Positions 43,349 through 61,683 of a stretch of DNA of 64,000 nucleotides are shown here, piece after piece. How positions within the stretch are numbered: the stretch's first letter is position 1; every line of letters starts with the position of its first letter. Under the pieces are notes generated by a model. The model had not been told where the DNA came from, ran no database searches, and saw nothing but the letters and a program-made list of their open reading frames with translations. Source of the DNA: Shinella sp. H4-D48 (lineage in GTDB: Bacteria; Pseudomonadota; Alphaproteobacteria; Rhizobiales; Rhizobiaceae); NCBI RefSeq assembly GCF_022637395.1, contig NZ_CP093338.1, positions 496,001 to 560,000 on the forward strand. The letters are read 5' to 3'. Both the position numbers and the translations under genes were made by a program.

Positions 43349-43356
43349 GGGTACCA

Positions 43357-44121: not shown

Positions 44122-44493
44122 AATGGGCGGCTGACAGAGCCCTGTACAGGGTCAGGACATACATTTCCGTGGTTTGCAGCCGCGAGAATTTTCGTTTCTT
44201 TTCAAAAGGAAACAGGAAATATTTCTGTAATTTAAAAGCGCCTTGAAATGGAAAAATCGTTGATGTTCCGCAATTTTCATGTTGACGCAATGATGAAAAA
44301 TAATAGACTTAATTACAGATCAACACACATTAACAAGCCCACGCATTCATGTCGCGGAAGATGAATTAAACGTCCGCACTATGCGGTGACGTGCGGTTTC
44401 GCGCTGCCTGAAGAACGATTGATCACCGATACCAGTCACCCGGGGTCGCCTTCGGGGGATGGTGACTTGCTGCCAAAAAAGGGGAACACTATT
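44122..44493 (+). promoter_or_regulatory. 372-bp upstream region of the second Liv-type transporter
   Basis: It contains a 12-bp perfect palindrome CCCTGTACAGGG (44140-44151) flanked by CTGA/TCAG, and a second near-palindrome GTTTCTTTTCAAAAGGAAAC (44194-44213, one extra base). The rest up to 44330 is AT-rich. A promoter for the transporter is likely here, though no clean -35/-10 pair was fixed. Confidence 0.5.
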
Positions 44494-45788: not shown

Positions 45789-46505
45789 ATGACGAGAATT
45801 CTCGAAGTCACCAACCTGACGAAGTCCTTCGGCGCGCTCACCGTGGCGAAGGACGTCAGCTTCGATGTCGCGGAAGGTGAAGTGCTCGGCGTGATCGGTC
45901 CGAACGGAGCCGGAAAGACAACTCTTTTCGGCATGCTGTCCGGTCATATCACACCTTCGTCGGGGACGGTTCGGTTTGGCGGCAAGGACATTACCACCAC
46001 ACCGCCGCATCGCCGGGCTCAGTTGGGCATCGGAAGAACCTACCAGGTGCCGAAGCCTTTCGGGCAGATGACCGTGGAGCAGAACCTCCGGGTTGCCGCG
46101 ACATTTGCCGGTCAGATGGACCAGCGTACCGCCGATCAATGGATCGGCGAGACGCTGGCCCTCACAGGGCTTTCCGCGCACGCCGGAGCGCTCGCTGGCG
46201 GCCTGCCGCTTCTGGTGCGCAAGCGCCACGAACTGGCCCGGGCGCTCGCCATGCGCCCGCGCCTGCTGCTGATCGACGAAGTGGCTGCGGGTCTGACCGA
46301 GGAGGAGGTCAGCGCCTTCATCACCATGGTCAAAAGCGTGCGTTCACTGGGCATCGCCGTCGTGTGGATCGAACACGTGATCCGGACCATGCTGACGGCG
46401 ACCGACCGGCTGATGGTTCTGGCGGACGGCCAGATCGTCGCCGTCGGCAGTCCCGAGCAGGTCATGGCGCTGCCCGAAACCCGCCGCATCTATCTGGGAG
46501 CCTGA
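45789..46505 (+). CDS. Branched-chain-type ABC transporter ATP-binding protein (LivG class)
   Basis: The 238-residue ATPase has Walker A GPNGAGKTT, GRTYQVPKPFGQMTVEQNLR, and Walker B LLLIDEVAAGLTEEE with VVWIEHV. The signature region reads LAGGLPLLVRKRHELARAL, a degenerate form in place of LSGGQ, found in LivG proteins that rely on the partner. ATG 45789 lies 41 bp after the binding protein. Confidence 0.92.
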   Translation: MTRILEVTNLTKSFGALTVAKDVSFDVAEGEVLGVIGPNGAGKTTLFGMLSGHITPSSGTVRFGGKDITTTPPHRRAQLGIGRTYQVPKPFGQMTVEQNLRVAATFAGQMDQRTADQWIGETLALTGLSAHAGALAGGLPLLVRKRHELARALAMRPRLLLIDEVAAGLTEEEVSAFITMVKSVRSLGIAVVWIEHVIRTMLTATDRLMVLADGQIVAVGSPEQVMALPETRRIYLGA

Positions 46506-46507
46506 CG

Positions 46508-47287
46508 ATGGGCAAGCCACTATCCATTCTCTCACTTCAGGGAATCTGCGCCTACTACGGCGAGCTACAGGCTCTCTTCGACATCGATCTCGATCTGACT
46601 CAGGGCGATATCCTGGCACTTATCGGAGCAAACGGCGCTGGAAAGTCGACGCTGCTGCGCACGCTCACCGGATTGACCACGGTCGGGGGCAAGACACGGC
46701 TGACTGGACGAATGGCCTTCGAAGGCCAGCCAATCGAAAGTCTGCCACCCGAGCGGATTGTTGAAATGGGCATCGCTCTCGTGCCGGAAGGCCGAAGGCT
46801 ATTTTCCCGCATGAGCGTCGAGGACAACCTTCTGTGTGGCGCCTACCTGCCGATCTGGCGGCAAGGTGCGCGCCGCAAACTGGACGAAATCTACGCATTG
46901 TTCCCCCGGCTTGCCGAAAGGCGCCGACAGATCGTGACGCAGATGTCCGGCGGCGAGCAGCAGATGGTTGCCATCGGCCGCGCGCTGATGACCTCTCCAC
47001 GTCTGCTGCTGCTCGACGAAGTCTCGCTCGGTCTGTCGCCTGCCGCTGTCGAAGAGCTTTACGGCAATCTTCAACGGTTGCGCAACGAGCTCACCATCAT
47101 CGTGGTCGAGCAGGATTTGCAACGGGCCATGGGCTTCGCCGGCCGTGCGGCCGTCATGTTGGAAGGCCGTGTCGTCCTTGCCAACGACATCTCAAAGCTA
47201 AGCCGTGAAGAGATCACAACCGCCTATTTCGGCGGTTCTGGCCATGCCAGCCCACAAACCAAGATGCCTGTCCAGGGAGTCCATTGA
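46508..47287 (+). CDS. Branched-chain-type ABC transporter ATP-binding protein (LivF class)
   Basis: The 259-residue ATPase has Walker A GANGAGKST, LVPEGRRLFSRMSVEDNL, signature MSGGEQQMVAIGRAL, Walker B LLLLDEVSLGLSPAA and VVEQDL. It follows LivG by 2 bp and ends 2 bp before the permease start. A short C-terminal tail (GSGHASPQTKMPVQGVH) is extra. Confidence 0.93.
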   Translation: MGKPLSILSLQGICAYYGELQALFDIDLDLTQGDILALIGANGAGKSTLLRTLTGLTTVGGKTRLTGRMAFEGQPIESLPPERIVEMGIALVPEGRRLFSRMSVEDNLLCGAYLPIWRQGARRKLDEIYALFPRLAERRRQIVTQMSGGEQQMVAIGRALMTSPRLLLLDEVSLGLSPAAVEELYGNLQRLRNELTIIVVEQDLQRAMGFAGRAAVMLEGRVVLANDISKLSREEITTAYFGGSGHASPQTKMPVQGVH

Positions 47288-47289
47288 CC

Positions 47290-48210
47290 ATGACGACGGA
47301 GGATTTCTACTGGGCCTTGATCGATCTCGCCAACGGGCTGATGACCGGCGCCACGCTCGGCGGCTATTATGCGCTGATCAGCGTCGGCCTCGCGCTGACA
47401 TTCGGCGTTATGAAGCTGGTGAACTTGTCGCATGGCGACTGGCTGATCGTGGCGGCCTATCTGGCGGTCGTCATTCTCGGCCTTTATCCGGTCTCACCCT
47501 TCTGGGTATTGCTCCCGCTCGTGCCAATGATGTTTGTCATCGGCTACGTCTTGCAGCGCGGTCTTCTCAACCGGGTATCAACATTCGCGGTGGAGCGGCG
47601 CGGCCTCTCGCCGATTATGGCGATGATGCTGCCGCTTCTGATCACCTTCGGCATTTCGACGGTCCTGTCGCAGGCGCTGCAGCTTGTATTCAGCACCAAT
47701 GCCCAGACGATCCGCAACGACTATTCCTTCTCCGCGATCGCGCTGAGCCAAGACCTCAGCATTTCGACGCTGCGCCTGGGTTTTCTTGTTCTTGCCGCCG
47801 TGCTGATCGGGGCACTCGCCCTGTTCATCCAGCGCACACACATTGGCCGTGCGATCCGCGCGACGTCCGACGACGCCGAAATCGCAGCACTGATGGGGAT
47901 GCGCACGGCGCATGTCTATGGCGTCGCCTCCGGCTTGTCCCTGATGTTTGCGGCCTTCGCCGGGTTCATGATCGGAATGTCGCGTTCGTTCCAGCCGTTT
48001 GATGGCCCTCCCTATCTGCTTACGGCCTTCGGCGTCGTCGTCATCGGGGGTCTCGGCTCGCTCGGCGGCTGCTTTCTCGGCGGTATCGTGTTGGGCATCA
48101 CACAGGTCCTGGCCGGCACCTATTTTGGACCAGCCGCCCAACAGCTTGCCGGCTATCTCCTCATTCTTCTCGTACTCGCAGCGCGCCCGCAGGGGCTCTT
48201 CAAGCGATAG
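47290..48210 (+). CDS. Branched-chain-type ABC transporter permease (LivH class)
   Basis: The 306-residue inner-membrane protein has LivH landmarks LTFGVMKLVNLSHGDWLIVA, RTHIGRAIRATSDDAEIAAL and VVVIGGLGSLGGCFLGGIVL, ending AARPQGLFKR. ATG 47290 is used; a TTG two codons earlier overlaps the previous stop. Confidence 0.93.
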   Translation: MTTEDFYWALIDLANGLMTGATLGGYYALISVGLALTFGVMKLVNLSHGDWLIVAAYLAVVILGLYPVSPFWVLLPLVPMMFVIGYVLQRGLLNRVSTFAVERRGLSPIMAMMLPLLITFGISTVLSQALQLVFSTNAQTIRNDYSFSAIALSQDLSISTLRLGFLVLAAVLIGALALFIQRTHIGRAIRATSDDAEIAALMGMRTAHVYGVASGLSLMFAAFAGFMIGMSRSFQPFDGPPYLLTAFGVVVIGGLGSLGGCFLGGIVLGITQVLAGTYFGPAAQQLAGYLLILLVLAARPQGLFKR

Positions 48211-48221
48211 GAACGGTATCC

Positions 48222-49409
48222 ATGGATCTCTCTAACCTATCCGCGATTGGCGCACCCCCTGTCACCACCAACGCCTCGAAATCCGCCCCCTGGAGAATCG
48301 GAGCACTCGTGCTGCTCGCCGCCTTGGTGATCGTTCCTTTGGTGGTGGGAACCGACAGCTATATCGTGCATCTGCTGATGACGGCCTTCATATTCGCCAC
48401 TCTCGGTCACGCCTGGAACCTAATGGCCGGATATGGTGGCATGCTGTCTGTCGGGCAGCAGGTGTTTATCGGGATAGCCGGCTTCTCCGAAGCCATCCTG
48501 ATTTATTATGCCGCCGCACCGCTCGTTGCTGTCTGGATTTTTGCTGGTCTCGTGCCCCTCGCCTTCGCGGCTCTTCTTGTCGCACCCATGGGTATCAGAT
48601 GGCCGCTACGGCGATCGTGGGCGCTTGTCGTTTTCTTCTGTCTTGTCGCAGGATACGAGATCGCCGTGACAGTGAAGCCAGAACTCGACATTTTCGGCGA
48701 TAATTTCACCCGTCGTGCATTTCTGCTGCTGTTCCTGTTCCTCGGAGGCCTGCCGCTGCTGAGGCTGCGCGGCGCCCATTTCGCGATCGCCACATGGCTG
48801 ATCGCCGAGTCCGTCGCAACGATCTTCAGCGGCTGGCCGCTTGCGGGCGCTGGCGGTGGCATGCAAGTCAATGCGGATGTCGACCTGTTGACCCTCTATT
48901 ATCTGGCGCTTGGCCTTGTAGCCGTCGTCACACTCGGCATTTTCCTCTGGATGCGATCCACGTTCGGACTGGCTCTGATGGCGGTGCGCGATGACGAGGA
49001 CGCGGCTGCGAGCAGCGGTATCGACGTCATGCGGATCAAGATGTCGATCTTCCTGATCAGCGCTTTCGTTACTGGGCTGGCGGCCGGGCTCTATTTCATG
49101 GATGCAATGATCATAACGCCGGCATCCGGCTTCTCGATCTCGTGGTCGTCCTATGTGGTGTTCGTGGTCGTTGCCGGAGGTATGGGGACGGTCTCAGGGC
49201 CACTTATCGGCGCAATCGTCTTTGTCGTCGTCGACCGCATCCTTGGCCAGATGTCGGGCCAGGGCCAGCTCGTGCTCGGGCTCATGTCGATTGCCCTGAT
49301 GCTGCTCCTGCCGCAGGGGCTCGCAGGGCTTTTCGGTCGATCCATGCGCCGACGCACCCATCTCATCCCGTTCCTACGCTCACCATCCATTTCAGGAGAA
49401 GGTCAATGA
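48222..49409 (+). CDS. Branched-chain-type ABC transporter permease (LivM class)
   Basis: The 395-residue protein has an extra N-terminal hydrophobic stretch, the LivM region LMAGYGGMLSVGQQVFIGIA and coupling loop RSTFGLALMAVRDDEDAAAS. It is longer than most LivM by an extra membrane part around 110-180. Its stop overlaps the first hydrolase start (ATGA), tying transport and hydrolysis into one operon. Confidence 0.92.
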   Translation: MDLSNLSAIGAPPVTTNASKSAPWRIGALVLLAALVIVPLVVGTDSYIVHLLMTAFIFATLGHAWNLMAGYGGMLSVGQQVFIGIAGFSEAILIYYAAAPLVAVWIFAGLVPLAFAALLVAPMGIRWPLRRSWALVVFFCLVAGYEIAVTVKPELDIFGDNFTRRAFLLLFLFLGGLPLLRLRGAHFAIATWLIAESVATIFSGWPLAGAGGGMQVNADVDLLTLYYLALGLVAVVTLGIFLWMRSTFGLALMAVRDDEDAAASSGIDVMRIKMSIFLISAFVTGLAAGLYFMDAMIITPASGFSISWSSYVVFVVVAGGMGTVSGPLIGAIVFVVVDRILGQMSGQGQLVLGLMSIALMLLLPQGLAGLFGRSMRRRTHLIPFLRSPSISGEGQ

Positions 49410-50287
49410 CAAAACTGTTTGCCGGCTATGAAAGTCAGGCCGCGCTTGACGCCGCCTATGATGTTGAATCATCGGTGCCCGACTTCAGCGTCTATGCCCG
49501 GCAGTTCATGGCAGACAGCGCCGCCGCCGAAGCCGCCATCGCGGACAAGCAATTGGGCATTTCCTATGGCGCCACGCTGATGGAGAACCTTGATCTCTAC
49601 AGGCCGTCACCCGCTCCCACGAAGGCACCCATCTTCATCTTTGTCCATGGTGGCGCCTGGAAATCGCTGACGTCGCGTGTGTTCTCAATGGTTGCACCTG
49701 GGCCGGTCGCAGCCGGCGCCTGCGTCGTCAACGTTACCTACGACCTCTGCCCGACCGTCGAAATGAGCGAGATCGTTCGCCAGGTGCGTGCCGCCGTCGC
49801 CTGGACCTACAGGAATGCCGAGTCTTTCGGAGGTGATCCGGATCGGATCGTCTTGGGCGGACACTCGGCAGGTGGTCATCTGACCGCGACCACGCTCCTG
49901 ACGGACTGGTCACGCTATGGGCTGCCCGACGACATCGTGAAAGCCGGCTTTGCGATCAGCGGGCTGTTCGATTTGACCCCCCTTGCCGAAAGCTTCCTGC
50001 AGCCGGACCTCAGGCTGACCCCGATGGCGGTCCAGGAATACAGCCCGGTCTTCAATGTCCGGAGCGACCTCGCGCCTCTCGCATTGACGTGGGGCGATGC
50101 CGACCCGGAAGCCTTTGCCGGACATTCGCAGCGGCTTGAGGCGGCCTGGAAGGCCGCCGGAAACCGCGCCAGCAGCTTCATTCTACCCCAGGCCAATCAC
50201 TTCGAGGTGCTGGAGGGGTTCAAGACGCCAGACGGACGAATGACGCAGGTGGTCATGGATCTGTTCGAGGGCAAGCTCCCCGATTGA
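49406..50287 (+). CDS. Arylformamidase-like alpha/beta hydrolase, copy 1
   Basis: The 293-residue cytosolic hydrolase has oxyanion motif HGGAW (81-85), nucleophile Ser154 in GGHSAGGHL, Asp231 or Asp233 in WGDADPE and His265 in ANHFEV, the arrangement of kynurenine formamidase (HGGxW) and related carbamate or amide hydrolases. Caggagaagg precedes the ATG, which overlaps the permease stop. It differs from copy 2 at about 31 positions, including Ala84 against Tyr84 in the oxyanion motif, which could change substrate size. Confidence 0.88.
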   Translation: MTKLFAGYESQAALDAAYDVESSVPDFSVYARQFMADSAAAEAAIADKQLGISYGATLMENLDLYRPSPAPTKAPIFIFVHGGAWKSLTSRVFSMVAPGPVAAGACVVNVTYDLCPTVEMSEIVRQVRAAVAWTYRNAESFGGDPDRIVLGGHSAGGHLTATTLLTDWSRYGLPDDIVKAGFAISGLFDLTPLAESFLQPDLRLTPMAVQEYSPVFNVRSDLAPLALTWGDADPEAFAGHSQRLEAAWKAAGNRASSFILPQANHFEVLEGFKTPDGRMTQVVMDLFEGKLPD

Positions 50288-50434: not shown

Positions 50435-51316
50435 ATGACACAATTGTTTGCAGGCTATGAGAGTCAGGCAGCGCTTGACGCCGCCTATGACGTCGAGTCG
50501 TCGGTGCCCGACTTCACTGTCTATGCCCGGCAGTTCATGGCAGACAGCGCCGCCGCCGAAGCCGCCATCGCCGACAAGCAATTGGGCGTTTCCTACGGCC
50601 CGACGCTGATGGAGACCCTTGATCTCTACCGACCGTCACCCGCTCCCACGAAGGCGCCGATCTTCATATTTGTCCATGGCGGCTATTGGAAATCGTTGAC
50701 GTCGCGCGTGTTCTCGATGGTTGCGCCTGGGCCGGTCGCAGCCGGCGCCTGCGTCGTCAACGTCACCTATGACCTCTGCCCGACCGTCGAGATCGGCGAG
50801 ATCATTCGCCAGGTGCGCGCTGCCGTTGCCTGGACCTACAGAAACGCCGAATCCTTCGGAGGCGACCCGGATCGGATCGTCATCGGCGGCCATTCCGCCG
50901 GCGGTCATCTGACGGCGACCACGCTCTTGACGGACTGGTCACGCTACGGTCTGCCTGACGATACCGTTAAAGCGGGATTTTCGATCAGCGGGCTCTTCGA
51001 TTTGACCCCCCTTGCCGAAAGCTTCCTGCAGCCGGACCTGAGGCTCACGTCACTATCGGTTCAGGACCATAGCCCGATGTTCAACGTTCGGAAATGCTTT
51101 GCGCCTCTCGCATTGACCTGGGGCGATGCCGACCCGGAAGCCTTCGCCGGGCAATCGCTACGCTTTGAAGCGGCGTGGAAGGCGGTTGGAAATGGCGCGA
51201 GCAGTTTCGTTTTGCCCAACGCCAATCACTTCGAGGTGCTTGAGGGGTTCAAGACCAGCGACGGGCGCATGACGCGCGTTGTAATGGATCTCTTCGAGGG
51301 GAAGCTGCCGGGATAG
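50435..51316 (+). CDS. Arylformamidase-like alpha/beta hydrolase, copy 2
   Basis: This 293-residue paralog of the preceding gene is about 89% identical, with no gaps, so the duplication is recent. It carries the classical HGGYW (81-85), Ser154 and His265. Differences cluster at 205-225 and in the oxyanion loop, while both triads are intact, so both copies look functional. GGGAGAA precedes ATG 50435. It closes the transporter operon and is convergent with the amidotransferase gene. Confidence 0.88.
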   Translation: MTQLFAGYESQAALDAAYDVESSVPDFTVYARQFMADSAAAEAAIADKQLGVSYGPTLMETLDLYRPSPAPTKAPIFIFVHGGYWKSLTSRVFSMVAPGPVAAGACVVNVTYDLCPTVEIGEIIRQVRAAVAWTYRNAESFGGDPDRIVIGGHSAGGHLTATTLLTDWSRYGLPDDTVKAGFSISGLFDLTPLAESFLQPDLRLTSLSVQDHSPMFNVRKCFAPLALTWGDADPEAFAGQSLRFEAAWKAVGNGASSFVLPNANHFEVLEGFKTSDGRMTRVVMDLFEGKLPG

Positions 51317-51491: not shown

Positions 51492-52214
51492 TCACCGGCG
51501 GCCCGGCAAGCCGCTTTCCGCAAGAAAGCGGGCAATTGCCTTGCCGATTATATGGTTGTCCAGCGGCTGGTTGAGAGACCGCTTGCCCTTCCGGACCACG
51601 TCGTCGGTGGCGATACCCTGCCGCATCTCACAGAGAGCGTACGAATAATCCCGCTCAAACTCCGGATGTGCCTGAAGTGTGAAGGTCGAACCGTTGTCGT
51701 AGAGAAGACCCGCACACGGCGTGAAAGCCGAGGACAGGACTGTGATCGCGTCGGATGGCGGAACCAACACCTGATCCTGATGGGAGCAAGCGATTGCGAC
51801 CTCGGACGCATCGATCAGACCATTGTCAGGACGGACCTGATAGACATGACGCCCGAGTCCCCAGCCCTTGTCCGTTCTCTGGACAACCCCGCCAAGCGCC
51901 TGAGCGATGATCTGATGACCAAAACACACGCCGACCATAGGCAGGTTTCGGGCGTGTGCGGCACGGATCAGGTCTTCAAGAGCTTTTTTCCAGGGAATTT
52001 CGTCATAGGTTCCGAACATTGAACCCGTGATCAGCAATGCCTCGACGTCATCGATATCAGGAAGATCTTGCCCCTCAACGACGCTGATGACGGCGAATTC
52101 GATGTCCGCCCGATGGGATGCAATCATCGTCTTGAACATGTCGGGCAACGATCCGAAACGGCCGCGGAGGTTGGGCGGTACCATGCCGACTTCCAGGATC
52201 GTGAGTTTCGCCAT
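51492..52214 (-). CDS. Class I glutamine amidotransferase-like protein (AtdA2/TdnT type)
   Basis: The 240-residue protein has the full GATase1 triad: Cys97 in GVCFGHQ, His183 and Glu185 in QAHPEF, and an N-terminal LLITGSMFGTYDEIPW. It has no synthetase domain. In aniline degraders AtdA2/TdnT, of this type, hydrolyses gamma-glutamylanilide back to amine and glutamate, and PuuD does the same job in putrescine breakdown. It accompanies a glutamine-synthetase-like gene and a Rieske dioxygenase on the same strand, though after a terminator. ATG 52214 follows AGAGGAAA. Confidence 0.88.
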   Translation of the reverse strand: MAKLTILEVGMVPPNLRGRFGSLPDMFKTMIASHRADIEFAVISVVEGQDLPDIDDVEALLITGSMFGTYDEIPWKKALEDLIRAAHARNLPMVGVCFGHQIIAQALGGVVQRTDKGWGLGRHVYQVRPDNGLIDASEVAIACSHQDQVLVPPSDAITVLSSAFTPCAGLLYDNGSTFTLQAHPEFERDYSYALCEMRQGIATDDVVRKGKRSLNQPLDNHIIGKAIARFLAESGLPGRR

Positions 52215-52303
52215 TTTGTTTTCCTCTATTGGTGTGCCGGCATGAATATCACCGCCCGTCGAAGCAAGGTTACCGCCTCCGCATGCGAGTGCTCTTCCAC
52301 ATG

Positions 52304-52327
52304 AAAAAGCAACCCTCACGGGTTGCT
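52304..52327 (-). terminator. Intrinsic terminator after the exported hydrolase
   Basis: On the minus strand AGCAACCC-GTGA-GGGTTGCT (8-bp stem, 4-base loop) runs into TTTTT. It lies 16 bp after the stop of the hydrolase at 52343 and before the amidotransferase, which therefore probably needs its own promoter or read-through. Confidence 0.8.
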
Positions 52328-52342
52328 TCCATGGCGAATGCA

Positions 52343-53263
52343 TCACCCCCGCATCATCTGTAGAACCGACTTGGAGACCTCACTGGCGGGATCGTTTAGC
52401 GCCTCCACAACCTCGAAATGGTTTACTGGAAGTTCGAACCTTGCCCTGAGGCTGCCCATCCCTTCCAGTGCGTTTGCGAATTCATTGGATTGACGCTTGA
52501 ACTCGGGGCTTTCGTTGGCGCCGTGAATCACGATAATATTGGATGCGACTTTATCGAGATGCCTCATCGGACTAAGCGCGGCCAACTCCGGGTCGGAAAT
52601 CGTGAGGTATTTCCGTCGCGATGACAGCATGACGGGATACAGATCGTACATCCCGCTCATCGCAACACCACCCTTGATGACGTCCGCGGGCACGTCCCAT
52701 GAAGACCAGTCCGTGGTCAGCAAGACGCCAGCCAGATGCCCGCCGGAGGAATGGCCCGACACGAAGATCTTGTTCGGGTCGCCCCCGAATTTTGCAATGT
52801 TCTTCGCGACCCAGGCCACAGCACGGCGACATTGATCGGCCATCTCCGGCAGGCGCACGGCCGGGATATTGTCGAAATTCAGCGCAATGTAGATACAGCC
52901 GTTTTCAACGAATGTCGGAGCGGGATGCGATGCGTCAGATCGGCTCAGCAGCCGCCAGGTCCCGCCGTGTACGAAGATCATGACCGGCAACTTTTCTGCA
53001 CCGGCAGGCGCGAAGATATCGAGCATCTCTGCCTCGCGCGGGCCATATTGCTCCGTTTTTGGCACGTATCTCTCACGCACCTTGGCACTGTCCGAACTGT
53101 AACGGCCGATGACTTCCTTCGCATTCGGTGCCCAGAAGCTCTGGTCATAGGCCTTGTCAAGAGCTTCCTGAGTGTAGTCCAGGAATACCGTGTCGTTGCT
53201 GCGAGCGGCGGCGGCTGAACAGAGGAGCCCAAGTATAGATGCATTAAATGTACGGCGCTTCAA
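52343..53263 (-). CDS. Alpha/beta hydrolase, arylformamidase-like, predicted exported
   Basis: The 306-residue protein has oxyanion HGGTW (99-103), nucleophile Ser172 in SGHSSGGHL and a His in VNHFEV, and resembles the two hydrolases at 49.4-51.3 kb but only distantly. It starts with TTG 53263, supported by AGGGGAA. Residues 1-21 (MKRRTFNASILGLLCSAAAA) look like a signal, possibly Tat, unlike its cytosolic relatives. It may deacylate or deformylate a substrate before uptake. Confidence 0.82.
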   Translation of the reverse strand: MKRRTFNASILGLLCSAAAARSNDTVFLDYTQEALDKAYDQSFWAPNAKEVIGRYSSDSAKVRERYVPKTEQYGPREAEMLDIFAPAGAEKLPVMIFVHGGTWRLLSRSDASHPAPTFVENGCIYIALNFDNIPAVRLPEMADQCRRAVAWVAKNIAKFGGDPNKIFVSGHSSGGHLAGVLLTTDWSSWDVPADVIKGGVAMSGMYDLYPVMLSSRRKYLTISDPELAALSPMRHLDKVASNIIVIHGANESPEFKRQSNEFANALEGMGSLRARFELPVNHFEVVEALNDPASEVSKSVLQMMRG

Positions 53264-53385
53264 TTTTATTCCCCTTTTTTTTGTTTAAGCAGGTTCATTT
53301 CTCCTTGGTCACAACCATGAAACGATTGTTGGCACCAAGCCACCAGCCCCTGCTTGCCGGCTAGGTTCTGTCCTAAAGCGAAACG

Positions 53386-53428
53386 GCGGTCGTCTTGACG
53401 CACGGGTGCGTTCGACGACCGAACGCCG
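53386..53428. other. Strong hairpin in the gap before the exported hydrolase
   Basis: CGGTCGTC (53388-53395) pairs with GACGACCG (53415-53422), and inside it ACGCA-CGGG-TGCGT forms a second stem, separated by a 3x2 internal loop. There is no clear T-run on the minus strand, so it is more likely an RNA-processing or stability element than a terminator. Confidence 0.55.
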
Positions 53429-53521
53429 CTGGATTTTTCACCCATTGATCGGAAAATTTATTCAGAATCAGATATTTACAAAAATAATCGACATCCGATG
53501 CATTCCGCAGGGTGCGCTGAC

Positions 53522-54565
53522 CTAGAGGTCCAGCACAAGTTTGCGGGTTCTCGAACGCCCGACGCAGATCATCATCGTCCGGTTTGCCTCTCGCTCCTCG
53601 TCGGTGAGCACCGTATCGCGATGATCAGGAAGCCCGGCAAGCACACCCGTCTCGCAGGTGCCGCAATAGCCATCCGAGCAGGAGAAGGACAGTCCTTGGC
53701 GAACGGTGCGGGCGCACTCCAGGATGGTCTGCCCCTTCCCTACGGTGACCGTCGCCCCGGTCTTTCGGAGCTCGACTTCAAAGGCACCATCGACATCACA
53801 CGCCTGTTGTGTCGCATCGTCGTCGCTCGGCGCAATATCCGCCGAAATCGAGATCTCCGCGCGGCCGAAGCGCTCCATATGCAGATGGATCGACGGGCGG
53901 CGCGCCACCTGCGCTGCCAGTGCGTCCATGAGTCCATTCGGACCGCAGGTATAGACAGCGGTTCCGTCAGGAAGGCCATCGATGAGGGCGGCAAGATCGA
54001 GGCTCGTGCCTTCGTCATCGATATGAATTCGGGCCAGATCAGGATCGGTGGGCGCGAGGCTGGCGACGGTCTCCATATAAGCCATCCGGCCGCGAGAGCG
54101 GCCAAGATAGTAGAGCTTCCACGGCTTGCCCTCCTGCTTCAACCGGGCGATCATCGGGAGAATGGGGGTAATGCCGATCCCTCCGGCGACGAAGACGTGT
54201 TGCACGGCAGGTTCCAGAGCGAAGGAGTTCTTCGGCTCGGTGGTAAGGATCGTATCGCCAGGCAGCAGTCTATCGTGAACATACTCGGAGCCGCCACGGC
54301 TCTGTGGTTCACGCAGGATCGCCAGTTCGTAGCTGCGGCCAGGATCGCCTGAGACGATCGAATAGGCGCGCGCCAATCCACCAGGAAGCGCAAGCTCGAT
54401 ATGCGCTCCCGGTTCCCAATCAGGAAGATCCGTCCCGGCAAGGCTCAGCTTCACGACGCCATCGGCCGCAGCCTCCTTGCTTTGCACGGTCAACCGCAGC
54501 CGGAATTTCGGCGCAACCGCGGTTTCTGGGGGCATTCTGGAAGCTGCAGCAGAGGCACTCATCAT
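53522..54565 (-). CDS. Dioxygenase reductase component (VanB/AtdA5 type)
   Basis: The 347-residue electron-transfer protein has a flavin domain (ARAYSIVSGDPG), NAD-binding VFVAGGIGITPILPMI and CGPNGLMDAL, and a C-terminal plant-type [2Fe-2S] ferredoxin with Cys296, Cys301, Cys304 and Cys334. It moves electrons from NAD(P)H to the Rieske oxygenase. It is 6 bp after the beta subunit. Confidence 0.93.
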   Translation of the reverse strand: MMSASAAASRMPPETAVAPKFRLRLTVQSKEAAADGVVKLSLAGTDLPDWEPGAHIELALPGGLARAYSIVSGDPGRSYELAILREPQSRGGSEYVHDRLLPGDTILTTEPKNSFALEPAVQHVFVAGGIGITPILPMIARLKQEGKPWKLYYLGRSRGRMAYMETVASLAPTDPDLARIHIDDEGTSLDLAALIDGLPDGTAVYTCGPNGLMDALAAQVARRPSIHLHMERFGRAEISISADIAPSDDDATQQACDVDGAFEVELRKTGATVTVGKGQTILECARTVRQGLSFSCSDGYCGTCETGVLAGLPDHRDTVLTDEEREANRTMMICVGRSRTRKLVLDL

Positions 54566-54571
54566 CTTATC

Positions 54572-55213
54572 TCACAGCAGGAACGTCATGTTGTGGTGGC
54601 TACGTGGGGCATCGAGCAGACATACGACCTTGCGGTCGATCTTGGTGATCCCGTCTTCTTCGACGAAGACATGTCCCATCCAACCGCTGAAAGTCTGGAT
54701 CTCGTGACCCGCGCGCATCTCCTGAATCAGGAATTGCGAGCGGACCTTCACCTCCGATTTGTTCTCCGACGGCATCCGCACGAAGGCCGTGCTGATATGC
54801 GACGTGTAGGAGGGCGGAAGCTGCGAATAGGCAACGCCGGTACGCAGCCAGACGATGCGGTCACCCAAGCGCCGGCGATCATCAAAGGCGATCGTCACCT
54901 GACGCTGCGGATCGGACCTTACCGGATCGGGCAGATCACCGACAGCCGGAACCCAATAGACGCACTTGCGGCTGTAGAGTTGATACCATCGCTCGAAGGC
55001 ACGGCGGTCGAGCAGCCAGTTTTCCTCGATGATCAGCGCCTCGTAGACATGCCGTTCCGCTTCGCTGAGCAGCGTACCCTTCCCTTCCCATTCGACCATG
55101 TCATTACGCAGCTTGGCGTAATAGGCATCGTCGATATAGGTCGAATCCAGCGTATCGCGCAGAATGTCCTCAAGCGTGAATCCGCCCTGCATCGGGTCTG
55201 TCGTGATGTTCAT
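54572..55213 (-). CDS. Aromatic-ring-hydroxylating dioxygenase beta subunit
   Basis: The 213-residue protein has the SnoaL/NTF2-like beta-subunit fold: YEALIIEENWLLDRRAFERW, LYSRKCVYWVPA, SHISTAFVRMPSENKSEVKV, and RKVVCLLD. It supports the alpha3beta3 oxygenase and has no metal site. ATG 55213 overlaps the alpha stop (ATGA). Confidence 0.92.
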   Translation of the reverse strand: MNITTDPMQGGFTLEDILRDTLDSTYIDDAYYAKLRNDMVEWEGKGTLLSEAERHVYEALIIEENWLLDRRAFERWYQLYSRKCVYWVPAVGDLPDPVRSDPQRQVTIAFDDRRRLGDRIVWLRTGVAYSQLPPSYTSHISTAFVRMPSENKSEVKVRSQFLIQEMRAGHEIQTFSGWMGHVFVEEDGITKIDRKVVCLLDAPRSHHNMTFLL

Positions 55214-56511
55214 TTCGCCACCCATGCGTTGCCGTATTCCATTCTTTTCAGCCATTCCTGCCAGAAGACGCGCAACGGCAGCTCGTCGGAAACCGGACCG
55301 GTCAACATGCCCTTGGCGCCGATATACTCCCTGCCGGTATCGAGATGACGGCCGGTCTGGACCCAGGCGACTTCCTCAATTTCAAGGCCGGCCTGGCATT
55401 CTTCAAAGTTCGCCAGATCATCCGGCTCACCAAAGGACGGGAAATCCTCCTGCAGGCGCATGCGCAAAGAATTGACCTCATCCGGCAGGTCGTCGGCCAC
55501 GAGCGCCGTTGCATACCAGTTGATATGGGTCTGGTTGACGCTCTGCGGCTCCAGCACCTGTATCTGGTTGCCAATAATCAAAAGGTTCGGGAAGATATTG
55601 AGGTTCATGCCCGAGCCCATGACGACGTCGAGCGCGGCTTCTCCCTTTTCACCCAGTCGCTCGCGAATGACGCGGGCATAGGTATCTTCACCGGGCATCG
55701 GCGCCGATTGATCCCAGTAGCGCGTGATTTCGGCACGCTGGTCGATGAATGTGCCGCCGTTTCCGGAATCGGAAACCGTCTGAAGACCATCGTCAACATT
55801 GCCGAGGGCCCATTGCATGTCGACGCCACCGCCGTAGCGATCCTTGCGCATGCGCAGCAGCGATGCGTGCGAGAAACCGGGATGATAACCGTCCGCCGCA
55901 TTGTCGTAGATCAGTTTCCAGTTGCCGGCACACATGAGTTTGTGCTGTCCGCGGCGCAGTTGAAGCTCCGCACCCGGCCAGCGGTCGAGCCATTCGTCGA
56001 GCAGCGCTGCCGCCGGGCCGAGATGGATCTTCAGGTCGGGTAAGTCGTTATTGAACGTGCCGAAAATGAATCCGCGATAGCTTTCGACGCGCAGCTTACC
56101 CAGGCCGAGTTCGCTCTTGTCGAAGGAAGGCCCGTAGCCGTCCTCCATCGGCACCGCTGCAAGCTCGCCCGTATTGGTGAAGGACCAGTTATGATAGGGA
56201 CAGGTGAAACGGCGGGCATTGCCCTCGTCCTGTCGACAGATCGTGGCTCCGCGGTGGGTGCAGCGGTTGAGCAGTCCGTGGAACTTGCCCTCGCGGTCCC
56301 GGGTCACGATGATGGGGCGCAGGCCGAGGCGCTTGCGCACGAAGTCGTTCGGGTTCGGCAGTTCGCTGGCATGCGCCAGGAAGGTCCAGGTACCGCCGAA
56401 GATGCGGCTCATCTCAAGATTAAAGATGCTGTGATCTGTGTAAAGGGTACGGTGAACCCGCCGGTCTTCGATCAAATGACCGAAGCCCCCTGTTGTAGTG
56501 TGAACGTTCAC
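55210..56511 (-). CDS. Rieske aromatic-ring-hydroxylating dioxygenase alpha subunit (AtdA3 type)
   Basis: The 433-residue catalytic subunit has the Rieske centre Cys84-x-His86 and Cys104-x2-His107 (NRCTHRGATIC, FTCPYHNWS) and the mononuclear iron site with His210 and His215 and bridging Asp207 (DNAADGYHPGFSHASLL). It starts with GTG 56511, supported by AAGGAAAA. It adds both atoms of O2 to an aromatic ring. The neighbouring glutamine-synthetase-like and amidotransferase genes indicate an aromatic amine, via its gamma-glutamyl adduct. Confidence 0.94.
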   Translation of the reverse strand: MNVHTTTGGFGHLIEDRRVHRTLYTDHSIFNLEMSRIFGGTWTFLAHASELPNPNDFVRKRLGLRPIIVTRDREGKFHGLLNRCTHRGATICRQDEGNARRFTCPYHNWSFTNTGELAAVPMEDGYGPSFDKSELGLGKLRVESYRGFIFGTFNNDLPDLKIHLGPAAALLDEWLDRWPGAELQLRRGQHKLMCAGNWKLIYDNAADGYHPGFSHASLLRMRKDRYGGGVDMQWALGNVDDGLQTVSDSGNGGTFIDQRAEITRYWDQSAPMPGEDTYARVIRERLGEKGEAALDVVMGSGMNLNIFPNLLIIGNQIQVLEPQSVNQTHINWYATALVADDLPDEVNSLRMRLQEDFPSFGEPDDLANFEECQAGLEIEEVAWVQTGRHLDTGREYIGAKGMLTGPVSDELPLRVFWQEWLKRMEYGNAWVAK

Positions 56512-56537
56512 GTCAGTTTTCCTTTGTTGCTGCCGTA

Positions 56538-58037
56538 TCAGTAGCGTGTGAAATACTCACGGTGCTCCCATTGGGTGACGGCGTCGGGGTCCTTCTCCCA
56601 GTCGGGTTCAGCGGCGAGGAAGCGGTTGATTTCGCTCTTCTTCATGCCGACGAGCCAATTGATGAACTGATCGCCCATCGCCGCCCTGAAGAACTGGCTG
56701 TTGTCGAGGGCGGCCGTCGCTTCCATCAGATTGGTCGGTAGCTTTGGCCGGTGCATGGCCTCATAGGGGCTGGCCTCGACTGGACCGGGATCGAGCTGCC
56801 GTTCCAAGCCATCGCAGCCGCTGAGGATTTGCGAGGCGATGTAGAGATAGGGGTTCGCACCCGGCTCGCCGATGCGGTTTTCAATATGCGAAGAACGGTG
56901 ACCGGGACGGCCCTGGACGCGCACCATGGCGGCACGGTTGTCGTAGCCCCAGGTCGAACGATCCGGCGCCAGCGAATTCGGCTTGCGGCGACGGTAACCG
57001 TTGACCGTCGGCGTCGTGAATACAGACGCCTCTACGGCATGTTCGAGAAGGCCAGCGACGTAGGCCTTGCCGGTTGGGGAAAGCAGCTCGCTTGTGCCTG
57101 GAGTGGCGACGAAGGCGTTGCGAATGCCCGGCGAGGACAAGCTCTGATGCAGATGCCAACCAGACCCGACGAAGCTTGGGAAGATCGGCCGCGTCATGAA
57201 GGTGGCATGCAGGCCCATGCGGGCCATCGTCTGCTTCACCATCGAGCGGAACAGTATCATGGAATCGGCGGCCTTCAGAGGGTCCTGGACGTCAAAAGTG
57301 AATTCCAGCTGCCCCGGCCCCATCTCGTCTTCCATGGTGCGAAGCGGCAGGCCGAGCCCCAGACAGTTTTCGGCAAGGGAATCGGTGATGTCGCTGATCC
57401 GATCCTGTTGGTCTTCTGACATATAGGCAAACCCGCGCCACAGTGCCTCGACCGTCGGAGGCGTCGGCGGCACGCCGAGCCCGCCCATATGCTCTTCGCC
57501 GAGATTGTGGTCTAGGACGCGGGTAACATAGAATTCGACTTCCAGACCGGTGACGAGTTCGAAGCCGAGCGCCTTCAGCCGCGAGATCGACGACTTCAGC
57601 TGATTGCGCGCGTCAAAGGGCACAGGCTTGCCGTTGCGCAGATAGATGTCGCAAAGCACCCAGCCAACAGTCGGCGCCCAGGGCAGGACACGGAAGGTGA
57701 GCGGATCAGGCACGAGGATAGCATTCGAGAAGCCATGCATCTCATCAAGGCCGATGCCGCCGGTCTTGCCAAAGGGATTATAGGCGACGCCTTCGGCGGA
57801 ATCGAAGCTGAAATAGGCACTGGTGAACTCCACGCCGTCACGCAGCGCCGACTTGAAGGCGTCGGGCAGCAGCGTCTTGGAGCGTAGCTTGGATTGCGCA
57901 TCCGGCACCGAGACGCGGAAAGTCTTCAGCTTGCCGCTATCGACCAGCGCTGCAATGTCGCGCGCTGCTTCGTGCTGCTCGTCCGTCCAGAGTCCAAATT
58001 CTTCGATAAAGCCGGATAATACCGGTGCATTGTCCAT
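56538..58037 (-). CDS. Glutamine-synthetase-like gamma-glutamyl-amide synthetase (AtdA1/TdnQ type)
   Basis: The 499-residue protein has the GlnA catalytic fold: Glu166 and Glu168 in LEVEFYV, GQLEFTFD (242-249), His295-Leu-His297 in GSGWHLHQ, and the ATP/Glu-binding VNGYRRRKPNSLAPDRSTWG. It is longer at the N-terminus than GlnA and, like PuuA and AtdA1, likely joins glutamate to an amine with ATP. It is first in the dioxygenase operon. ATG 58037 follows AGAGGGAA. It is unlikely to be a housekeeping glutamine synthetase given its neighbours. Confidence 0.9.
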   Translation of the reverse strand: MDNAPVLSGFIEEFGLWTDEQHEAARDIAALVDSGKLKTFRVSVPDAQSKLRSKTLLPDAFKSALRDGVEFTSAYFSFDSAEGVAYNPFGKTGGIGLDEMHGFSNAILVPDPLTFRVLPWAPTVGWVLCDIYLRNGKPVPFDARNQLKSSISRLKALGFELVTGLEVEFYVTRVLDHNLGEEHMGGLGVPPTPPTVEALWRGFAYMSEDQQDRISDITDSLAENCLGLGLPLRTMEDEMGPGQLEFTFDVQDPLKAADSMILFRSMVKQTMARMGLHATFMTRPIFPSFVGSGWHLHQSLSSPGIRNAFVATPGTSELLSPTGKAYVAGLLEHAVEASVFTTPTVNGYRRRKPNSLAPDRSTWGYDNRAAMVRVQGRPGHRSSHIENRIGEPGANPYLYIASQILSGCDGLERQLDPGPVEASPYEAMHRPKLPTNLMEATAALDNSQFFRAAMGDQFINWLVGMKKSEINRFLAAEPDWEKDPDAVTQWEHREYFTRY

Positions 58038-58422
58038 AACTAAGTTCCCTCTTTTTTAAAGTTATGGAGGCATGTTCGATATTTTACATATTTCTGTCAA
58101 TATGAAAAATTGCAAACGTCAAAGTTTATAACTTCCCAAGCCGGGCTGCCGAGATGCGCAGGGTTGGCCATCGACGAAACAGTTAAACCGTGATGTCAGA
58201 TCATGCTGCTCTGGAGAGCCGCGTGCCGGGCTTGGACAAGCTTGATAGTGGCTGCCGTGTAACGTACCGAATCCTGCAACTTGGGTCTTCCAAACGCCTT
58301 TTTACGTGCAAAAAGGAGCGCCGCAGAGAAAAGTCCGTCGCGCGATATTCGCCGAGCTGGGCTTGTCGCAGGGCGGGCGGTCGCATACAACCAAGGCGGA
58401 TAGGAGTGCGAGACAGGGTGGA
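58038..58422. promoter_or_regulatory. Divergent control region, dioxygenase operon/RpiR
   Basis: A 385-bp gap between the glutamine-synthetase-like gene and the RpiR start. Close to the former it is AT-rich and holds the inverted repeat CATATT-TCTGTC-AATATG (58087-58104), a fair operator candidate. The frame of RpiR is open back to 58306 but without a ribosome site. Confidence 0.5.
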
Positions 58423-59313
58423 ATGACGGCAAAAGAAGGAGTCGGCGGAACTGTTTCACAGCGCATCAGGGTGCTTAGGGACCGCCTGCCGCCGGCTGAA
58501 CTCGCCGTAGCCAATTCAATTTCAGACAACTATCCAATGGGCGGCCTGATGCCTGTCGTCCAGTTGGCAGCAAATGCAGGGACCAGCCCGCCGACAGTGG
58601 TGCGCTTCGTCAGGAAGCTCGGCTTTGAAGGCTATCCGGAGTTTCAGGAAGCCCTGCGCCAAGAAGCGCAGAACCGGCTGTTTTCGCCAGTCGGCAGCTA
58701 TCCCGACAATCGCGACTTTTCGGGTGAACTTTCTGCTGTCGGGCAGGCGCAACATGTCTATCTAGAAAGCATCCGCAATACCTTCGCGTCGCTTAGTGAC
58801 GCCGAAATCGCGAACGCCGTGCGGCTGCTTTGCGCTCCCGAACACGACATCGTCGTGATCGGCGGCCGATTCAGCCAAGTTCTGGCGCAGCAACTTTATC
58901 GGTACTTGTCGATCCTGCGGTCGGAAGTCCGGCTCTCGGTGCCGGATATCCATAGCCTCGTTGATCTCAGGCCCTCTACCGTCGCGGTCGTCTTCGACTT
59001 CCGCCGCTACCAGCAGACAACGATCAACTGGGGCATCGAGGCAATCAACAAGGGTACAAAGATAATTTTGGTGACGGATCAATACCTGTCCCCGCTCGCC
59101 TCGAAGGCCACGGCCTTGCTGACGGCTAGCAACAAGGGACCGGAGCCCTTCGATTCCATGACGGCCGCCTTCGCTCTAACAGAACTATTGATTTCCGAGA
59201 CGGCCCGTATGCTCGGCGAGCCCGCTCGCAACCGGCTCTCCGAATTCGTCCAACGCCAAGACGACGAAGATCGTCTGATCCTCAAGTTCGAGCCTCCGGC
59301 GCGCGACTCCTAA
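58423..59313 (+). CDS. RpiR/MurR-family transcriptional regulator
   Basis: The 296-residue protein has an N-terminal HTH_6 (SQRIRVLRDRLPPAELAVAN, AANAGTSPPTVVRFVRKLGF) and a C-terminal SIS domain (EHDIVVIGGRFSQVLAQQLY, TVAVVFDFRRYQQTTINWGI). SIS domains usually sense phosphosugars; RpiR members also act in amine and amino-acid pathways in rhizobia. It is divergent from the dioxygenase operon and likely controls it. ATG 58423 is preceded by AGGGTGGA. Confidence 0.92.
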   Translation: MTAKEGVGGTVSQRIRVLRDRLPPAELAVANSISDNYPMGGLMPVVQLAANAGTSPPTVVRFVRKLGFEGYPEFQEALRQEAQNRLFSPVGSYPDNRDFSGELSAVGQAQHVYLESIRNTFASLSDAEIANAVRLLCAPEHDIVVIGGRFSQVLAQQLYRYLSILRSEVRLSVPDIHSLVDLRPSTVAVVFDFRRYQQTTINWGIEAINKGTKIILVTDQYLSPLASKATALLTASNKGPEPFDSMTAAFALTELLISETARMLGEPARNRLSEFVQRQDDEDRLILKFEPPARDS

Positions 59314-59435: not shown

Positions 59436-60545
59436 TCAGAGCGAACCGTTGTTCGACCGATATCGCGCGAGCCAGTGAGCATAAGGCGCCGGTAGCGTCC
59501 ATGCGGGATTCTCCTTTCCAAGCGCCATTGCGAGCTGGTAGGGATAGTGCGGATTGGCCAGCATGGCGCGGGCCATCATGACCACGTCGAGCTGGTTATC
59601 CGCTATCGCCTTTTCGGCGTCGCTGGGGGCGTCGAGAAGCCACGCGGAGGCCACGGCAATACCTGTTTCCGACCGGATACGCGAAGCGAACGGAAGCAGG
59701 AACGCCGGACCCCACGGGACATTACCGACGGGAGCAGAGAAACCCATGCTCGTGCTGATAAGATCGAGGCCACCGGCCTTCAGCTGCTTTATCACTGCGA
59801 TGGACTGCCCGAGCGCCTCTTCGTCCCGGCCATCGAATTCGACGATGCCGAAGCGAACGGTCAAGGGCAGGCTCTCCGGCCATACTTCGCGAATGGCAGC
59901 CAAGGTCTCGATCATAAAGCGGTTCCTGCCAGCCTGATCACCACCATAGGCATCGGTCCTCTGGTTGGAATAGGCCGAGAAGAAGCTGGAGGCCAGGAAA
60001 CCATGCGCGAAGTGGAGTTCAAGCCATTCGAATCCGGCGTCCTTCGCCCGTCGTGCAGCGGATACAAAATCCGCTTTTACACGGGCAATATCTGAAACCG
60101 ACATCTCTCTCGGTACTTTCGAAAGAGCGCCGCCGAAGGGTATCGCCGAAGGCGCTATAGTCTCCCAGCCGCGGGGATCGTCTGCCGGTATATGATCATC
60201 GCCTTCCCAGGGAAGGTTCACACTTGCCTTGCGGCCTGCATGTCCGATCTGGATACCCGCAACAGCACCCGCAGCTTTGATCGACGCCGCAATCTTGGCC
60301 ATGCCTTCAGTCTGTTCGTCCTTCCAAAGGCCCGTGCAACCCGGCGTAATGCGCCCTTCGGGCGATACGGCAGTCGCCTCGACGATGACAAGACCGGCAC
60401 CGCCGCGGGCAAGACTGGGATAGTGCGTGAAATGCCAATCGTTCACGAAACCGTCCTGCGCCTGATACTGGCACATGGGAGCGACAGCGATGCGGTTACG
60501 AAGGGTGACATCTTTCAATCTGTAGGATGAAAATAAAGCTGACAT
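59436..60545 (-). CDS. Old Yellow Enzyme family NAD(P)H:flavin oxidoreductase (NamA/YqjM-like)
   Basis: The 369-residue FMN enzyme has NRIAVAPMCQYQAQDGFVND (with the YqjM-type Cys), GQ-type IQIGHAGRKASVNLPWEG, LHFAHGFLASSFFSAYSNQR-TDAYGG region, and VMMARAMLANPHYPYQLA for phosphate binding. It reduces activated C=C bonds such as enones or nitro compounds. Divergent LysR at 60686. It might serve aromatic breakdown in the cluster next door, but belongs to a separate unit. Confidence 0.93.
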   Translation of the reverse strand: MSALFSSYRLKDVTLRNRIAVAPMCQYQAQDGFVNDWHFTHYPSLARGGAGLVIVEATAVSPEGRITPGCTGLWKDEQTEGMAKIAASIKAAGAVAGIQIGHAGRKASVNLPWEGDDHIPADDPRGWETIAPSAIPFGGALSKVPREMSVSDIARVKADFVSAARRAKDAGFEWLELHFAHGFLASSFFSAYSNQRTDAYGGDQAGRNRFMIETLAAIREVWPESLPLTVRFGIVEFDGRDEEALGQSIAVIKQLKAGGLDLISTSMGFSAPVGNVPWGPAFLLPFASRIRSETGIAVASAWLLDAPSDAEKAIADNQLDVVMMARAMLANPHYPYQLAMALGKENPAWTLPAPYAHWLARYRSNNGSL

Positions 60546-60685
60546 TTTGAACTTGCTCTTCTTGATAGGCCTGTGAACGGGTTTTGTGAGAGGAGAAATA
60601 GTGGCGCTGATTTGAGCGTGAAAGTGGATCAATCCCTAAATTACTGTTACTGAATTGGATAACAGTGATAATTGAGGTTGTGCTT

Positions 60686-61603: not shown

Positions 61604-61683
61604 GGTGCCTGAAGCTCTTGAGGGGATTGTTTGATCCAACGGTTTGATGGTGCGATCCTTTCCTTGGAATGGAAGATCCCCTA

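Follow-up and report, generated by a model that had tools for sequence, protein, structure and literature searches.

We analysed a stretch of 64,000 nucleotides of Shinella sp. H4-D48 (the window; positions 496,001 to 560,000 of contig NZ_CP093338.1), which lies on an 893-kb contig of a 4.77-Mb, Rhizobiaceae-like genome in three contigs. It carries a row of genes for a glutamine synthetase (GS)-like ligase, a Rieske oxygenase with alpha and beta subunits, a reductase and a stand-alone class I glutamine amidotransferase (GATase), which an initial annotation had read as a cluster that oxidises an aromatic amine through a gamma-glutamyl adduct. Gamma-glutamylation-dependent dioxygenation is known from degraders of aniline, chloroaniline and 1-naphthylamine (in part from PMC11335346). 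All five proteins were found, as annotated, on the minus strand with matching domains, and the GATase possesses the catalytic motifs GVCFG and HPE. The annotated row stopped short, however, of a second palindrome and operon (44274-51316) that we count as part of the same system; the two hydrolase genes of this operon, hyd1 (49406-50287) and hyd2 (50435-51316), make the hydrolase of the ligase operon, hyd3, the third, as had been stated.

On the minus strand the order is ligase, alpha, beta, reductase, hyd3, hairpin and GATase, with rpiR divergent from the ligase gene and XenA beyond rpiR. On the plus strand, convergent to the ligase operon, lie iclR, a small open reading frame (ORF), hpaH, hpaI, the gene for a solute-binding protein (SBP), livG, livF, livH, livM, hyd1 and hyd2. 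The start of the beta gene was moved from 55255 to an inner ATG at 55213, where it overlaps the alpha stop and agrees with the start of the Oceanobacter homologue. The principal features are:

44274..44299, no strand: palindrome TTTTCAT-N12-ATGAAAA, perfect, upstream of the importer operon; overlaps a promoter-like TTGACG-16-TAGACT (44282-44309)
44494..45747, plus: branched-chain-amino-acid-type SBP (weak LivJ/K-type matches)
45789..48210, plus: LivG, LivF and LivH-type ABC importer genes
48222..49409, plus: LivM-type permease (PF02653)
49406..50287, plus: alpha/beta hydrolase hyd1, no signal seen (89.7% identity with hyd2)
50435..51316, plus: alpha/beta hydrolase hyd2, no signal seen (BD-FAE)
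51492..52214, minus: stand-alone class I GATase, PRK05665-like, putative gamma-glutamyl amide hydrolase, 240 aa (PF00117; GVCFG and HPE motifs; ATG at 52214)
52303..52328, minus: terminator-like hairpin AAGCAACCC-GTGA-GGGTTGCTT and U run (fold of 52296-52345)
52343..53263, minus: alpha/beta hydrolase hyd3, BD-FAE/HSL type, TTG start, probably exported (PF20434; signal-like N-terminus by eye)
53522..54565, minus: ferredoxin-NAD(P)H reductase with C-terminal 2Fe-2S (Fer2 and NAD-binding domains; C-x4-C-x2-C)
54572..55213, minus: Rieske dioxygenase beta subunit (PF00866; inner ATG at 55213)
55210..56511, minus: Rieske dioxygenase alpha subunit, 433 aa (PF00355 and PF00848; motifs; tree; AlphaFold 2 model)
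56538..58037, minus: GS-like gamma-glutamyl organic-amine ligase, putatively of GoaS type, 499 aa (PF00120, 259.8 bits; trees)
58083..58108, no strand: palindrome TTTTCAT-N12-ATGAAAA, one mismatch, upstream of the ligase gene; lies around a promoter-like TTGACA-N17-GAACAT, by eye
58423..59313, plus: RpiR-family regulator (HTH_6 and SIS), divergent from the ligase gene (PF01418 and PF01380; start corrected)

Kinship of the ligase, the oxygenase and the GATase

The best match of the ligase in the PDB is 8wwu (E 2.8e-136), which, by sequence match, we take to be NpaA1 of Pseudomonas JS3066, the structure of PMC11335346; the window protein is 46% identical to NpaA1 and 50% to the pTB30 protein. 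In our trees the aniline side consists of NpaA, pTB30 and their relatives rather than of AtdA and TdnQ records; AtdA1 is 90% identical to NpaA1 according to PMC11335346. In a large ligase tree of 84 rows (34 of 118 were left out, mostly near duplicates), 33 of the 34 Rieske-linked ligases fell into a single group of 35 rows (support 90/86), the remaining two rows coming from loci without a full alpha gene in the fetched stretch and the ligase of locus L044 being the sole Rieske-linked one outside. The window ligase belongs to an 11-member branch (100/100) beside ligases of the aniline, chloroaniline and naphthylamine type and actinobacterial and Bacillus members. A second tree (38 rows, with a GlnT reference) placed GlnA, GlnT, PuuA, IpuC and seven of the genome's own paralogues outside the 100/100 group that contains the window ligase; an eighth GS paralogue, with two partial matches, is in no tree. 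The two halves of the Rieske-linked ligases are joined with moderate support (90/86 and 81/88), which makes a shared origin of the linkage between ligase and Rieske oxygenase likely rather than proven. Both trees exclude GlnA and GlnT as identities of the window ligase: it does not show the clustering with either that the initial annotation had named as refuting its own reading, and groups instead with amine ligases of the AtdA1/DcaQ/NpaA1 type.

Counts over branch loci are based on stretches with 0.1-10 kb flanks, and absence from these is not absence from the genome. With residues numbered as in NpaA1, whose aromatic-gate residues were tested by mutation (PMC11335346), F75 is kept by 10 of the 11 branch members, by 22 of the 26 other Rieske-linked ligases and by 6 of the 71 ligases whose fetched stretch has no full alpha gene; for F86 the counts are 11/11, 26/26 and 53/71, respectively; E232 and E234 are present in all 11 branch members. 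The window ligase keeps these four residues and has Met in place of W235 and Tyr in place of V201, the latter to be compared with Y205 of AtdA1 (PMC11335346). Pro72 occurs in none of the 11 branch members and in 25 of the 26 other Rieske-linked ligases, while residue 79 is acidic in 11/11 as against 1/26. The GS catalytic domain (PF00120), a position outside GlnA and GlnT, and an amine-entry loop with the aromatic gate F75/F86 and with E232/E234 together point to a GoaS-type enzyme, predicted to carry out ATP-dependent ligation of glutamate to an amine.

The alpha subunit carries the Rieske motif CxH-x17-CxxH at residues 84-107 and a D-G-Y-H-x4-H stretch at 207-215, and its AlphaFold 2 model (mean pLDDT 87) has the HcaE/BphA/NDO fold, with HcaE, BphA, IadD and NDO as best matches. 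In a tree of 42 rows, limited by long branches and few outgroups, a nine-row group (99/97) contains the alphas of the window, Rhizobium BG4, Oceanobacter, Mangrovicoccus (two), Bradyrhizobium BTAi1, Falsirhodobacter, Pseudomonas and Gordonia, which that of Pseudonocardia pini joins at 82/55; the aniline-side alphas form a separate group of 19 rows (98/98). A carboxylate-type oxygenase (benzoate, anthranilate, phenylpropionate) was rejected, as NCBIfam scores are far below the cut-offs and HcaE and a BenA-like alpha, among few carboxylate-type references on long branches, fall outside. The window alpha groups with amine-linked alphas and not with carboxylate-type dioxygenases, so that the second outcome named as refuting the annotated function did not occur either. 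The indole-3-acetic acid dioxygenase IadD/E was likewise rejected: it gives a good PDB match, yet at 29% identity.

Columns R270, Q272 and R275 of 16 non-branch alphas are replaced by A, by M and by E or Q, respectively, in 10 branch rows (this comparison was made without locus L069 of Actinomycetospora, which a later loop comparison included). In that later comparison (30 rows and 18 further), the aniline-side loop QRPQPGR, a signature seen here rather than taken from a paper, reads APMPG in the branch, with APSPGRE in L069, P0068 and P0072, QRVAPGRE in P0120, QRLQPGRE in L070 and L071 and QHPHPSRE in L044 as exceptions. The loop is predicted to contact the glutamyl group. The substrate-contacting loops of ligase and alpha would have changed together, so that the substrate would differ from that of the aniline branch and be more polar. 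Since the pocket loops of both enzymes differ from the aniline branch, the substrate is probably something other than plain aniline. The annotated oxidation of an aromatic amine through a glutamyl adduct is thus backed by kinship in both trees, and it is for plain aniline that the pocket loops argue against it.

The GATase scores best against PRK05665 (161.6 bits; PRK09065, 120.4), and the GATases of five proteobacterial clusters (L010, L011, L041, L145 and L163) match PRK09065 best, at 78-99 bits. In an unrooted tree of 32 rows the window protein groups with database GATases of Mangrovicoccus, Shewanella and Bradyrhizobium, and one branch (99/95) parts the window-side GATases from 17 other cluster GATases, which in such a tree may represent one lineage or two. 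The split therefore makes it seem that this helper gene was acquired at least twice, or that the roles differ. No match to the window GATase was found in the fetched stretches, some incomplete, of L009, L061, L062, L063, L065 and L066. Its best PDB match is gamma-glutamyl peptidase 1 (E 7.5e-14), presumably the Arabidopsis protein, which would fit hydrolysis of gamma-glutamyl amides. The statement that AtdA1-A5 and TdnQTA1A2B consist of exactly these parts consequently holds for the core and fails for the GATase, which lies outside their lineage or lineages. The annotated terminator ahead of the GATase gene is a hairpin that lies about 15 nt past the hyd3 stop and leads into a U run; the fold of its 50-nt stretch has an energy of -21 kcal/mol (z -3.5), which 1 of 200 shuffles equalled. 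A pattern scanner, which listed 17 terminator-like sites as against 16.6 in shuffles, did not list it.

These results bear on two alternatives. A plain aniline dioxygenase of the AtdA/TdnQTA1A2B kind, acting on aniline or simple alkyl- or chloroanilines, would share the core parts and the 46-50% ligase identity to the NpaA1 and pTB30 proteins, and two actinobacterial relatives do lie near catA; given the separate ligase branch, the separate alpha branch for nine rows, the ligase changes at Pro72 and residue 79, the alpha loop changes, a GATase from another lineage and no ring-cleavage gene recognised alongside, we consider it improbable. The ligase might instead glutamylate an aliphatic or heterocyclic amine, with the Rieske enzyme hydroxylating or dealkylating the adduct, much as the GoaS enzymes for isopropylamine and putrescine use aliphatic amines (PMC11335346); the altered alpha loop, and Bacillus relatives beside hydantoinase A/B and an NCS1-type permease, speak for this. 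With the aromatic gate F75/F86 retained, the HcaE/BphA/NDO fold of alpha, and arylamines as the substrates of characterised Rieske-linked systems (in part from PMC11335346), a non-aromatic amine appears unlikely.

A palindrome upstream of both operons

The 26-bp palindrome was first noticed by eye upstream of the ligase gene, where it is kept in BG4, Mangrovicoccus and Falsirhodobacter, and was then tested; the ligase sites are thus not independent evidence, unlike the second operon and the counts over whole genomes. A search of the window returned one further strong site, a perfect copy upstream of the SBP gene, 14 kb from the ligase site. When up to one mismatch is allowed, the whole 4.77-Mb genome has only these two sites, one ahead of each operon, and the reversed pattern has none. 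The 1.6-Mb plasmid of Rhizobium BG4 likewise holds exactly two sites, both perfect, at the promoters of its ligase and importer operons, which are about 26 kb apart; BG4 also keeps the block iclR-orf-hpaH-hpaI-SBP-livGFHM-hyd, in different flanks. The SBP is found at 83% in BG4 and as a 79% fragment on pCNB. In Mangrovicoccus there is one site, upstream of the ligase gene. An arm-shuffle test is hardly informative, as only 42 distinct arms exist: two sites turned up in 43 of 2000 shuffles, roughly as often as the arm itself comes up.

Both window sites overlap the TTGAC boxes of plausible promoters, as would be expected of a repressor site; promoter-like patterns as such are not enriched (8 found, 7.4 in shuffles). 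Ten of the 11 branch loci have an RpiR gene within the stretch fetched, as against 1 of 26 other Rieske-linked loci; the eleventh branch locus (L066) ends 112 bp upstream of the ligase gene. From this linkage we infer that RpiR binds the palindrome. RpiR in place of LysR had been presented as new relative to the known clusters: the divergent RpiR gene is real, but it marks the branch and is not special to this locus.

Proposed pathway

With gene content, kinship, shared palindromes and conserved linkage established by computation, the reading we favour, at a probability of about two in three, is a two-operon catabolic regulon for a rather polar aromatic amine that joins import, hydrolysis, gamma-glutamylation and dioxygenation. 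The Liv-type ABC importer (44494-49409) would take up the amine or its ester or amide precursor, and one probably exported and two cytosolic alpha/beta hydrolases would liberate the amine. The GS-like ligase would couple glutamate to it in an ATP-dependent gamma-glutamylation, and the alpha-beta oxygenase, fed by the reductase, would dihydroxylate the gamma-glutamyl arylamide at the amino-bearing carbon to give glutamine and a catechol. The GATase would undo surplus glutamyl adduct, and RpiR would repress both operons via TTTTCAT-N12-ATGAAAA across their -35 regions. By all signs seen, amines would be handled as by AtdA/TdnQ. More tentatively, and at somewhat short of even odds, this may be an undescribed pathway scattered over alpha- and gammaproteobacteria and actinobacteria for a natural polar arylamine, probably met as ester or amide, in which the SIS domain of RpiR senses the amine or its glutamyl adduct and not a sugar phosphate.

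The hydrolases would serve the delivery of the amine. Hyd3 has a signal-like N-terminus containing RR (by eye) and the motifs HGG and GHSSG, and hyd1 and hyd2 are 34-35% identical to it. In the PDB the hydrolases match a lipase and esterases best and kynurenine formamidase less well: Lipase 1 (9n8r) at E 4e-23 and kynurenine formamidase at 2e-11 for hyd3, and 9n8r at 1e-30 and kynurenine formamidase 4e11 at 1e-15 for hyd2. In Mangrovicoccus ximenensis (L064) a single row holds rpiR, ligase, alpha, beta, reductase, hyd3, GATase and a hyd1/2 homologue, with XenA on the opposite strand (identities to the window: hyd3 67%, GATase 63%, hyd1/2 homologue 56-59%, XenA 74%), and in Pseudomonas MWU16-30317 an OprD porin and a BD-FAE hydrolase whose start is signal-like come after the reductase. 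This linkage speaks for an ester or amide as the source from which the amine is delivered, probably in part outside the cytoplasm. It also qualifies the novelty that had been claimed for an exported hydrolase, since a signal-like start is visible by eye but a hydrolase in such a cluster is not unique to the window: Mangrovicoccus has an orthologue at the corresponding position, Pseudomonas MWU16-30317 has the other BD-FAE hydrolase just described, and the aniline-type cluster of Stutzerimonas stutzeri CSW02, discussed below, includes an alpha/beta hydrolase. The linkage of XenA is common to the window and Mangrovicoccus, and we assign it no role. Substrates such as 2-quinolinone or a formyl-arylamine, at which XenA and the formamidase-like hydrolases hint, are ideas only.

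Several observations weigh against this regulon. At three mismatches the window count of the palindrome is 4, which 5 of 100 shuffles reach, and 16 of 394 family genomes (our own included) contain a perfect copy, against 4 of 394 for the reversed pattern. Of the two sites in Falsirhodobacter, one is at the ligase gene and the other, with one mismatch, elsewhere; BTAi1, Pseudomonas and Gordonia lack the palindrome, as do the binding-protein loci of Ensifer pC and of pCNB, and Oceanobacter has a variant. L069 belongs to the branch by its ligase, but its alpha has no settled place in the tree and carries an intermediate loop. Given the APMPG loop, either the binding of the glutamyl adduct or the adduct itself may differ. 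The GATase is outside the AtdA2/TdnT lineage, and beside the operons no ring-cleavage gene was recognised. We know of no activity or substrate for any member of the branch. The importer, finally, is not common to other branch genomes: the SBP reached 1e-40 in 3 of 9, at 32-39%.

This last point also favours an account in which importer and hydrolases serve another pathway and the palindrome is the site of another regulator or arises by chance. HpaH/HpaI-like and IclR genes adjoin the importer operon, an Ensifer plasmid carries the importer-hydrolase pair but, in the 25 kb fetched, neither a ligase nor the palindrome, and binding by RpiR is a prediction. Such a separation is hard to reconcile with the genome's only two sites at one mismatch or fewer being found here, with the same two promoters bearing sites in BG4, with a hyd1/2 homologue inside the Mangrovicoccus ligase row and with three hydrolases of one family; we hold it to be of low probability.

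For the regulon reading, ortho cleavage of the catechol is possible, since the genome has five intradiol matches; of the four scanned, one is a protocatechuate 3,4-dioxygenase beta above the cut-off and three are catechol-type, below it. Homoprotocatechuate meta-cleavage, hinted at by HpaH and HpaI, was rejected in the absence of any LigB or C23O match in the genome, in which HpaD gave only a weak match far below the cut-off and no extradiol dioxygenase reached the cut-off. HpaH and HpaI lie upstream of the importer site and need not be members of the pathway. On plasmid pCNB of Comamonas CNB-1 the 79% SBP fragment (L144:15001-15957) lies between genes for 2-aminophenol 1,6-dioxygenase and 2-hydroxymuconic semialdehyde dehydrogenase. 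A 2-aminophenol route, at which this fragment hints, was rejected on similar grounds, as it would require a LigB-type gene.

Related clusters, distribution and neighbouring genes

AtdA1-A5, TdnQTA1A2B, DcaQTA1A2B and NpaA1-A5 have in common with the window a GS-like ligase, a two-subunit Rieske oxygenase, a colinear reductase (23-28%) and a GATase. In the trees the window stands beside the aniline and 1-naphthylamine systems, but as a separate branch, and its ligase and alpha were tested for nesting within the AtdA/TdnQ type and do not nest there. The GATase gene of the aniline systems is of the AtdA2/TdnT lineage and comes second, whereas that of the window, from another lineage, comes last, behind the hairpin; the regulator is RpiR rather than LysR; and the oxygenase loop is APMPG rather than QRPQPGR, with L069 as the exception in the branch. 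The window adds hydrolases and an ABC importer, its pocket loops are changed, and no ring-cleavage genes are recognised alongside. We do not file it as a member of AtdA/TdnQ, in view of these differences in GATase lineage, gene order, regulator and loop signature. What appears to be new is the branch with its importer, hydrolases and two-promoter regulon, the dioxygenation chemistry being already known. A gamma-glutamyl route also exists for 4-aminobenzoate, though our literature search did not return it.

Two actinobacterial plasmids, pDND3A of Rhodococcus gordoniae and pDK2035-69 of Dietzia, share alpha, beta, GATase and ligase with the window, and the R. gordoniae cluster also has, like the window, an RpiR gene (46%); both differ in having separate ferredoxin and reductase genes, catA nearby and a ligase that falls on the aniline side. 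To our knowledge neither cluster has been characterised. A plasmid of Stutzerimonas stutzeri CSW02 (L145) has a row in which a ligase, an alpha/beta hydrolase, an oxygenase and a reductase stand together with a GATase-like gene; unlike the window it has LysR, an MFS transporter, a gene annotated only as 'dioxygenase' and a maleylacetate reductase, and its hydrolase is 35-37% identical. This strain is reported to degrade paracetamol, with 4-aminophenol and hydroquinone detected (PMC9865377, available passages); the words amidase, glutamine and dioxygenase did not turn up in a term search of the main text, and the passages concerned link no genes to paracetamol. From its gene content the row is a candidate paracetamol/4-aminophenol cluster, and by analogy it hints at how such a pathway may be supplied by a hydrolase.

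All 11 branch loci contain ligase, alpha and beta, and 6 of 11, including the window, the reductase. An alpha match at 1e-60 was found in 2 of 21 genomes of the genus (our own and one at 36% identity), and 33 of 394 family genomes, our own included, have a ligase match with an E value of 1e-90 or lower; among 20 family ligase loci taken with flanks, two had a full-length Rieske alpha adjacent. The branch looks rare and scattered, and horizontal spread would therefore fit. A literature search, with most subscription journals outside its coverage, returned no report of it. Within the window's family, L041 (genome G007) has the order ligase-GATase-alpha-beta-reductase, as in the aniline clusters. 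In Bacillus and Schinkia (L097, L115, L125), Rieske-linked ligases lie near hydantoinase A/B and permease genes, identified by annotation in L097 and by the same ORF families in L115 and L125, and these loci may represent a different route of amine delivery.

A second branch, including the root-nodule isolate BG4, would suggest that this chemistry also serves a natural amine and may indicate the origin of pollutant pathways. The two-promoter regulon makes the substrate searchable through induction of either promoter, and RpiR control of amine catabolism, if true, widens the range of signals known for the RpiR family.

The genes adjoining the two operons are:

42566..44121, plus: HpaH-like hydratase and HpaI-like aldolase, membership uncertain (HpaH just above its model cut-off, HpaI below)
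59436..60632, minus: XenA-type old yellow enzyme (xenobiotic reductase A structures, E about 1e-166)

The first belongs to the block of iclR, small ORF, hpaH and hpaI (40952-44121) upstream of the importer palindrome, which BG4 keeps in different flanks. Beyond XenA lies a LysR gene (60665-61603), followed at 61644-62085 by short ORFs that resemble, by eye, remnants of insertion-sequence transposases. G+C content is 58.8% in the cluster and 59.2% in the window, and Rfam and tRNA scans found nothing. Elsewhere in the window, 26771-30669 holds LivG/LivF-like genes, an amidase (PRK07235) and an ORF of 167 aa that matches the N-terminal third of aldehyde dehydrogenases.

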